Of a stretch of DNA of 39,075 nt, positions 31,132-33,059 are shown one piece after another. The translations under genes were made by a program, and so were the position numbers. The stretch is from Jiulongibacter sp. (GTDB taxonomy: Bacteria > Bacteroidota > Bacteroidia > Cytophagales > Spirosomataceae): contig JAHEBN010000017.1 of NCBI GenBank assembly GCA_024645245.1, forward strand, positions 1 through 39,075, written 5' to 3'. The notes below the pieces were generated by a model that was given only the letters and a program-made list of their open reading frames with translations, did not search any database and had not been told where the DNA came from. Numbering within the stretch: the first letter of the stretch is position 1; each line of letters begins with the position of its first letter.

Positions 31132-31163
31132 TTGCAGGTTACTTTTTAAAGGCTCTATATTTG
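31132..31163 (+). promoter_or_regulatory. Promoter of the GNAT leader transcript
   Basis: TTG at 31132-31134 (in CTTGCAG), a 21-nt spacer, and an exact -7 box TATATTTG at 31156-31163. Transcription would start near 31170, about 11 nt before the leader peptide ATG and 180 nt before the GNAT ATG. Confidence 0.6.
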
Positions 31164-31180
31164 TACCGTATTAGAGAAAA

Positions 31181-31243
31181 ATGATAAGCATAAATCTTCC
31201 CATATCGCCTTTTCGACGAATGAGGTCCGTGAGGACCCAATAA
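31181..31243 (+). CDS. Predicted arginine-rich leader peptide
   Basis: A 20-codon frame: ATG at 31181, TAA at 31241-31243. The peptide ends FRRMRSVRTQ (residues 11-20). Codons 12, 13, 15 and 18 are arginine (CGA, CGA, AGG, AGG): four of seven consecutive codons. It begins about 11 nt after the predicted transcription start and its stop codon lies just before the terminator hairpin. A leader peptide this rich in one amino acid, placed before a terminator, is the hallmark of translational attenuation sensors (trp, his, leu leaders); arginine is the predicted signal. No Shine-Dalgarno is present, as expected in Bacteroidota. Chance occurrence cannot be excluded without conservation data. Confidence 0.65.
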   Translation: MISINLPISPFRRMRSVRTQ

Positions 31244-31282
31244 GGAGGTATACCCTTACGGGTAACACTCCGGTATTTTTTT
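31224..31282 (+). promoter_or_regulatory. Predicted transcription attenuator with alternative RNA folds
   Basis: Fold one: hairpin GGTCC-GTGA-GGACC (31224-31237, GNRA loop) plus a terminator: inner stem TACCC (31251-31255)/GGGTA (31260-31264), outer stem GGAG (31244-31247)/CTCC (31268-31271), optional AATA/TATT pairing, then seven T (31276-31282). Fold two: GTCCGTGAGG (31225-31234) with CCTTACGGGT (31254-31263), ten consecutive pairs with three G-U, which destroys both. A further small hairpin TGAGG-TAAG-CCTCA (31327-31340) sits just before the GNAT start. Pairings were found by eye, not energy-calculated. Confidence 0.65.
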
Positions 31283-31350
31283 CTTCAATCAATTTTCACA
31301 ATTTAAAGGATACAGCGTCTCCCAGCTGAGGTAAGCCTCAAAAAACGACG

Positions 31351-32067
31351 ATGAATACATTAGAAAAAACTATTATCAGAGAATTCATAGTGCAGGTTGC
31401 CGGCATTGAGCACGAAGTGTGGGCCGATACCATTTGCGATGAAATGGCAGCAAGTGCCGCCGCCAGAGGAACAGGTATCGCACGTCGATCGCCTGAGTAC
31501 ATCAAAAAGAAAATGCAGGAAGGAAAAGCCGTTATTGCCCTTACTAAGGACAATGACTGGGTGGGTTTTTGTTACATTGAAACTTGGGAACATGGTAAAT
31601 TTGTTGCTAACTCAGGTTTGATTGTACATCCCGATTACCGCAAAAGTGGAATAGCTACTGCCATCAAGGCAAAAGCTTTTCGTCTTTCCAGATCGAAATA
31701 TCCGGAGGCTAAAATTATTGGTTTAACAACCAGCATGGCGGTAATGAAAATCAATTCGGAGCTTGGATACGAACCGGTGGCATTCAGTGAACTGCCTAAG
31801 GATGATGAGTTCTGGAAAGGATGTTCCAGCTGTGTCAATTACGATATACTAACCCGAACAAACCGGGCACACTGTCTTTGTACAGGAATGAAATATGATC
31901 CTAAAGAAGTTAAAAACGAGAAATCGAAATGGGAATTCACAAAGGAATCTTCTCTATATGAAAAATGGACAGCAATGAAGCAAAAAATCCTGCTGAAAAT
32001 GGAGGAGAGCCGGAAAAAAAAACTTCAACTGAAAATGGCCGAAAAGAAAACAGAATTAGCGGCTTAA
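31351..32067 (+). CDS. GNAT acetyltransferase, probable arginine-biosynthesis type
   Basis: 238 residues. The GNAT acetyl-CoA loop is VHPDYRKSGIATAIK (92-106), with the R-x-x-G-x-A core. Four cysteines follow, GCSSC (158/161) and CLC (175/177), which could bind a metal. The C-terminal tail (190-238) is lysine-rich and probably helical. I recall proteins with the CxxC...CxC layout heading arginine operons (before argG) in Bacteroidota, serving as N-acetylglutamate synthase; here no arg gene follows, so that role rests on the leader and this memory. The arginine-rich leader upstream is independent support. The start is the ATG right after the leader hairpin. Confidence 0.8.
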   Translation: MNTLEKTIIREFIVQVAGIEHEVWADTICDEMAASAAARGTGIARRSPEYIKKKMQEGKAVIALTKDNDWVGFCYIETWEHGKFVANSGLIVHPDYRKSGIATAIKAKAFRLSRSKYPEAKIIGLTTSMAVMKINSELGYEPVAFSELPKDDEFWKGCSSCVNYDILTRTNRAHCLCTGMKYDPKEVKNEKSKWEFTKESSLYEKWTAMKQKILLKMEESRKKKLQLKMAEKKTELAA

Positions 32068-32135: not shown

Positions 32136-33029
32136 ATGCCTTCTGATCAAAAAGATTTTATCAAACTGCATTTTCTGGTAGTTATACTTGGATTTACAGC
32201 CATTCTCGGGAAACTTGTGCAGATTGACACCCTGGGTGTGGTACTATTTCGTACCCTTGTTGCCTCCGCGGGTTTAGGTGTTATTTTTTACTACAGGAAG
32301 TTACAAATACCAGATAAGAATCAGATTATAAGACTATTGGCTATTGGTTTTGTGTTGGGAATACATTGGATATGCTTTTTTGGATCAGCACGTATGTCTA
32401 CGGTTTCTTTAAGTTTAATAACCTTTTCAACCACCTCATTTTTTACCAGTGTTTTAGAACCTTTGGTAAAAAAAGAACCTTTTCGGCCAAAAGACATGTT
32501 TCTTGGGCTCCTGGCCATAGCTGGTATGTGCCTAATTTTTACGTTCGAATTTGCACATCTTGATGCCATATTAATTGGTTTGGCAGGTGCCTTGTTATCT
32601 GCAATTTATACCATATTGAATGCTCGTTTGGTAAAAAGTTCCAATAGTACCACTATCAATTTTTTCGAACTATCCGGGGCTTTTTTGACTCTATTACTCC
32701 TTACAAGCATTATCTATATAACTAATAATCAACTCATTGGGAATATTATCCCTAACTCCGATGACTGGATTTGGCTGTTGATTCTGGGAATTGGTTGTAC
32801 GGTATATCCTTATTTGGAGATGGTAAAACTACTGGAGAAATTCAGTGCCTTTACTGTAAATCTGGCCATAAATATGGAACCGGTTTATGGGATAGTTATG
32901 GCTTGGCTTATTTTTGGAAAGGAAGAAAAAATGACACCGGGATTTTATGCCGGAGCTGCCATCATACTATTTTCGTTGGCTCTAAATGCCTGGTGGCGTA
33001 AAAAAGAAAGAGCCCTTTCAGCTTGCTGA
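32136..33029 (+). CDS. EamA/DMT-family transporter
   Basis: 297 residues with ten hydrophobic helices in two EamA repeats (about 10-130 and 150-290). The ATG at 32136 (MPSDQKDFIKLHF) is chosen over an in-frame TTG nine codons upstream. PYLEMVKLLEKFSAFTVNLAINMEPVYGIVMAWLIFGKEE is the typical second-repeat end of metabolite exporters such as YdcZ/RhaT-like carriers. The solute is not predictable. The stop lies within the hairpin at 33010-33037. It follows the GNAT gene by 68 bp but has its own -7 element. Confidence 0.88.
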   Translation: MPSDQKDFIKLHFLVVILGFTAILGKLVQIDTLGVVLFRTLVASAGLGVIFYYRKLQIPDKNQIIRLLAIGFVLGIHWICFFGSARMSTVSLSLITFSTTSFFTSVLEPLVKKEPFRPKDMFLGLLAIAGMCLIFTFEFAHLDAILIGLAGALLSAIYTILNARLVKSSNSTTINFFELSGAFLTLLLLTSIIYITNNQLIGNIIPNSDDWIWLLILGIGCTVYPYLEMVKLLEKFSAFTVNLAINMEPVYGIVMAWLIFGKEEKMTPGFYAGAAIILFSLALNAWWRKKERALSAC

Positions 33030-33037
33030 AAGGGCTC
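33001..33037 (-). terminator. Terminator of rpmE2, overlapping the EamA stop codon
   Basis: A perfect 13-bp inverted repeat, GAGCCCTTTCAGC (33010-33022) and GCTGAAAGGGCTC (33025-33037), loop TT. On the reverse strand it is followed by TTTCTTTTT, so it ends rpmE2 transcripts; on the forward strand no T-run follows. Confidence 0.88.
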
Positions 33038-33059
33038 CGTATTAATTCTTTAAAATGAA

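Follow-up and report, generated by a model that had tools for sequence, protein, structure and literature searches.

A putative arginine-sensing leader upstream of argA2 in Jiulongibacter sp. and other Bacteroidota

Organization of the argA2 locus

The whole stretch of DNA analysed here, called the window below, comprised 39,075 nucleotides of Jiulongibacter sp. (assembly GCA_024645245.1, contig JAHEBN010000017.1, positions 1 to 39,075 of the forward strand). Its plus strand carries argA2 at 31351-32067, a gene for a GNAT family N-acyl-glutamate synthase assigned to the first step of arginine biosynthesis. The GNAT gene of Bacteroidetes arginine operons has been described as ArgA2 and proposed to be an N-succinylglutamate synthase, and a growth/fitness defect rescued by arginine has been reported for BT3761 (argA2) of B. 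thetaiotaomicron (PMC9026213). The window gene was equated with ArgA2 by orthology, argG adjacency and this published description. Two ortholog samples were used, one of 80 loci (mostly Spirosomataceae) and a second, class-level one of 89 loci, and in 86 of the latter an argG homologue lies downstream of the orthologous GNAT gene on the same strand. The order in Dyadobacter is GNAT, argG and then, as far as the translated frames indicate, argC and argD. The next gene after argA2 in the window encodes an EamA-type transporter, and a strong palindromic hairpin with a T-rich tail on the minus strand was observed at the end of that gene (33009-33038). The argG gene of this genome was located on another contig and no leader was found upstream of it, so argA2, not argG, would be controlled here.

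The region upstream of argA2 begins with a predicted promoter at 31132-31163 (+), composed of TTG at 31132-31134 and the -7 box TATATTTG at 31156-31163. The box is an exact match to TAnnTTTG, given as the consensus of flavobacterial sigma-A promoters in PMC9723704, and similar boxes were aligned at the equivalent position in most relatives. About 17 bases downstream begins the frame 31181-31243 (+), which is translated as the 20-codon peptide MISINLPISPFRRMRSVRTQ with Arg at codons 12, 13, 15 and 18 (CGA at 31214, CGA at 31217, AGG at 31223 and AGG at 31232; putative sensing codons 31214-31234) and the stop codon TAA at 31241-31243. The Arg-rich frame behind an exact -7 box, as given in a preliminary description made from the letters of the window, was thus borne out by the translation and the box. 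The same description had proposed that rare-type codons CGA and AGG would sharpen the response; this was not upheld, because CGA and AGG make up 17% and 13% of the Arg codons here, respectively, and are not rare (AGA 29%, CGT 18%, CGC 13%, CGG 11%).

Conservation of the leader peptide and its hairpins

A short ORF was found at the equivalent place in nearly all of the 80 orthologous loci, with a PFRRMRSARTQ-like or HTTPFRFRSERTI-like end. In the group of the window, pN/pS was 0.26 in the coding frame versus 2.4 and 3.7 in the two shifted ones; across three groups, this one among them, the in-frame values ranged from 0.22 to 0.33 and those of the shifted frames from 0.9 to 4.6, and for Emticicia, after frame alignment, they were 0.60 and about 1.0, respectively. 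At the Arg positions of the leader the amino acid was kept while the codon was exchanged between AGG and CGG, or among AGG, CGA and CGG in other groups. Leaders at orthologous GNAT genes, whose alignment had been suggested as a check, therefore do contain recurrent Arg-rich frames with their Arg codons kept, and the comparison shows purifying selection on the leader frame and its Arg codons as coding sequence.

Arg excess was estimated in the last 12 codons of ATG-started ORFs, with the expectation taken from dinucleotide shuffles. At least three Arg were present in 46 of the 87 loci counted in the class sample (5.7 expected, z 17.8) and at least four in 24 of them (1.1 expected), the runner-up amino acid being Pro with a z of only 3.2. 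The peptide sequence diverges widely among families and the Arg richness persists; leaders such as INFTPLRRIPRRR are also carried by other classes of Bacteroidota, and by sequence comparison the Arg-rich leader is conserved across the phylum. Among the loci collected, the leader and the start-codon element (see below) labelled as Flavobacterium sp. SUN052 (L074) match those of Rudanella and Spirosoma relatives, and this genome label may be wrong.

The ArgR domain (PF01316) was absent from the genome of the window (98.5% complete) and from all 61 family genomes, with the positive controls matched in both searches. Judged by coordinates, argR lies directly upstream of argA2 in all seven class-sample genomes having both genes (loci L142, L163, L164, L166, L168, L169 and L170), and the Arg leader was not found at these loci. 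The leader was thus present in none of the seven argR-bearing loci versus 46 of the 80 others (Fisher p 0.004), a comparison of limited independence since five of the seven loci belong to one family. Repressor and leader therefore look interchangeable at argA2, and the leader seems to stand in for the absent arginine repressor.

Purifying selection on the peptide would also be expected if the ORF encoded a functional small protein with no regulatory role. This reading is considered very unlikely, since only the Arg-rich ends are kept and the remainder is not recognisably alike across families, while the ORF always lies upstream of argA2, is overlapped by hairpins and is missing where argR occurs.

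Hairpin 1, GGTCC(GTGA)GGACC at 31224-31237 (+), is built from the last Arg codons of the leader, and three of its five pairs have compensatory double changes. Its GGUCC/GGACC stem is replaced by GAUAU/AUAUC only in Emticicia relatives, and this switch was probably one event because it is confined to them. Hairpin 2 (31244-31271) varies in many lineages, with double changes in six of seven pairs among relatives. When both hairpins were scored on 44 aligned sequences, 91.9% of the cells were paired and double changes were present in 9 of the 12 pairs; neither the pairing nor the covariation score was reached by any of 500 shuffles, and pairing dropped to 27-54% in the slid-partner control. The fold of the whole leader was beaten by only 5 of 200 shuffles (z -2.33). 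Covarying stems in related leaders, another check suggested beforehand, were thus found for both hairpins, and the comparison shows hairpins 1 and 2 to be real structures, as judged from the aligned sequences.

A CCUACGYGG core is common in hairpin 2 of the relatives, and it or a close variant recurs across families despite stem changes (L084, L086, L093, L113, L117, L120, L123, L133 and L144). A possible further helix after hairpin 2, UAUACCC/GGGUAUA (for example in L058) or, in L012, CUACCC/GGGUAG, was observed upstream of argA2 in Dyadobacter at the place of the start-codon element. Hammerhead-like letters around GUCCGUGAGGAC were rejected, the conserved core being absent in relatives.

With a covariance model of the leader, one strong copy per genome was obtained in 39 of the 61 family genomes (E <= 2.3e-8). 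Ten weaker extra matches to the leader or the start-codon element in the 61 genomes were inspected; one was a divergent argA2 leader and the other nine were apparent chance matches, most of them inside reading frames. A chance ORF with fortuitous hairpins is given almost no weight and is refuted by conservation, namely by the recurrence of peptide and hairpins at the equivalent place in dozens of orthologous loci, the frame selection, the covariation, the single copy and the Arg excess.

Termination and the element at the start codon

Hairpin 2 and the seven T at 31276-31282 form the predicted intrinsic terminator of the window (31244-31282, +), whose energy is -13.9 kcal/mol and which was equalled by none of 30 shuffles. 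In the preliminary description this terminator was set against a mutually exclusive antiterminator of 10 bp with arms at 31225-31234 and 31254-31263 (+). Both the terminator with seven T and the 10-bp complementarity, three pairs of which are G-U, do exist, but the two folds are unequal, with about -13.9 kcal/mol for the terminator versus -7.9 to -10.3 kcal/mol for the antiterminator. By folding energies, the terminator stays dominant with a ribosome modelled at Arg codon 12, 13 or 15, and inspection of the alignments and folds of the relatives found no antiterminator. Co-transcriptional folding could favour the earlier helix. Furthermore, the 5' arm of the terminator would be occupied as long as a ribosome rests on the stop codon, so that termination needs ribosome release. 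A U-tract terminator matched by at most 1 of 30 shuffles was present in only 21 of 129 leader-bearing loci; convincing intrinsic terminators were limited to the window, its nearest relatives and scattered other families, and in most relatives hairpin 2 is followed by pyrimidines with no U-tract. The proposed terminator/antiterminator switch was not sustained by these results, and since no conserved, competitive antiterminator was seen on inspection, the leader is regarded as working like an attenuator but not as a proven classical member of that group.

With the antiterminator weak or absent and the U-tract mostly missing, the output of an Arg-codon leader could instead, as with Salmonella speF, be termination by Rho in the C-rich gap or control of argA2 translation, a reading considered possible but somewhat unlikely. 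Besides the pyrimidines after hairpin 2, the C/G ratio of the gap between leader and gene (1.6 in the family and 1.4 in the class sample versus 1.10 in 363 control upstream regions) would suit Rho, although C richness is indirect evidence and a good intrinsic terminator is present in the clade of the window. A precedent for both kinds of output is speF orf34, which uses Rho, masking of the RBS and RNase G (PMC6386406).

Translational control is further suggested by a conserved element at 31304-31353 (+) that pairs with the start region of argA2. It contains P0 (GGA/UCC, 31308-31310/31320-31322), the loop of which carries (C/U)GUC, complementary to GAC(G/A) immediately before the AUG; P1, formed in the window by CGUC at 31316-31319 with GACG at 31347-31350; and, between the two strands of P1, a variable hairpin P2 at about 31327-31340. 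The block was present in 43 of the 83 loci examined, about half of the family (the window, L002-L008, L010, L015, L024, L046, L054 and others), and its model gave a single strong match per genome, while the additional weaker sites that were inspected proved to be chance matches. Of 28 distinct sequences, 18 have C-G and 10 have U-A as the fourth pair of P1, with no exception; the first pair of P0 is A-U or G-C. In a control in which the 3' arms were re-dealt, the outer pairs gave 87 versus 84 expected, which was not significant, so the case for the structure is made by the invariant cores, by covariation at two pairs and by the variable P2. From these patterns the element is probably a pseudoknot that extends over the start codon of argA2, and it probably acts in translational control. 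Against translational control as the output of the leader, the element is missing in Dyadobacter despite the presence of the leader there. Pairing of GACG codons of the leader with CGUC of the element was also considered and rejected, as it was suggested only by the folds of the window and Emticicia and not by the others.

Proposed control of argA2 and its relation to known leaders

Regulation of an arginine gene by an Arg-codon leader peptide is strongly supported at the sequence level, because Arg codons change synonymously, the frame is under selection, the hairpins covary, the leader adjoins a biosynthesis gene of the same amino acid (ArgA2, usually followed by argG) and leader and ArgR exclude each other. 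These points sustain the arginine-leader interpretation made earlier, the exact switch excepted. Our preferred reading, held with reasonable confidence, is that 31132-31350 is the leader of argA2, in which a ribosome stalls at the Arg codons and transcription terminates before argA2 when arginine is ample. When charged tRNA-Arg is scarce, the ribosome would stall at the Arg codons (31214-31234) of the 20-codon peptide; a ribosome halted at codons 12-13 would occlude the 5' arm of hairpin 1 but not its 3' part, and the opening of hairpin 1, itself made of Arg codons, would alter the downstream folding. With ample arginine the peptide would be completed, hairpin 2 would form and transcription would mostly end upstream of argA2, the intrinsic terminator 31244-31282 being the most likely site in this genome. 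That the leader senses arginine is likely; that the ribosome stalls, that low arginine raises expression and that the response is exerted through termination are what we infer.

H-T-T-P-F and R-S-x-R-T beside the Arg codons are shared by 45-50 of 50 sequences despite synonymous changes at several of their codons, and the conservation of HTTPF as amino acids goes beyond what tRNA charging requires. In the class leaders, Arg also stands at a fixed distance from the stop codon (codon -8 in 33 of 46 and codon -2 in 36 of 46). The nascent peptide might accordingly arrest the ribosome in response to arginine, as fungal AAP and SpeFL do, instead of serving as a simple Arg-tRNA sensor; we consider this unlikely, as families that share the Arg richness have widely different peptides, and ribosome geometry could equally set the Arg spacing. 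A combined scheme, in which two layers of RNA control at argA2 replace ArgR, is similarly speculative: the nascent peptide would aid the stall in the leader, and the start-codon pseudoknot would sense arginine or a pathway metabolite or bind the enzyme.

Ribosome-mediated leader-peptide attenuators control the trp, his, leu and thr operons, and the Bacteroid-trp motif is a tryptophan leader in Bacteroidota. The argA2 leader resembles the former in its short ORF with end-product codons upstream of a pathway gene, its paired hairpins and, in the window, its U-tract terminator; it differs in the amino acid, in the lack of a convincing antiterminator, in the rarity of the U-tract among relatives and in the conserved element at the start codon. 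The Bacteroid-trp motif concerns tryptophan, not arginine, and shares with the argA2 leader and with the leaders of Flavobacterium psychrophilum the phylum and attenuation upstream of amino-acid biosynthesis operons, the latter leaders being covered by a general remark in PMC9723704, whose main text names no amino acid. Arg-codon leaders have already been described for speF of Salmonella (PMC6386406) and rbf of Staphylococcus aureus (PMC13009471), neither of which controls arginine synthesis. In speF orf34, as here, consecutive Arg codons, codons 12 and 13 in both, sense arginine, a hairpin lies 3' of the stop codon and the leader controls the next gene; however, it regulates ornithine decarboxylase through the outputs named above, and the next gene of the present leader is argA2 and not speF. 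A DUF2618 core (PF10940) is conserved in the SpeFL peptide, with which the present leader was compared by description. In S. aureus rbfL, arginine limitation is likewise sensed by the Arg codons of a leader, but this leader has eight codons and its stall blocks the RBS of the biofilm regulator gene rbf, so that low arginine represses.

Neither the window nor any of six relatives gave an Rfam match at the gathering score, the best hit in the leader region being unrelated (E 0.49), and neither the leader nor the start-codon element is in Rfam. An arginine leader controlling arginine biosynthesis was not found described in the literature searched, which for F. psychrophilum refers to the main text of PMC9723704. 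With this leader, arginine would join the amino acids sensed by leader peptides of biosynthetic genes, and the start-codon element is a further candidate for an undescribed RNA. For the Bacteroidota, the leader is a candidate for the means by which arginine synthesis is controlled in the absence of ArgR, and it becomes directly testable whether a protein repressor and a ribosome-based sensor have been swapped at a single operon.
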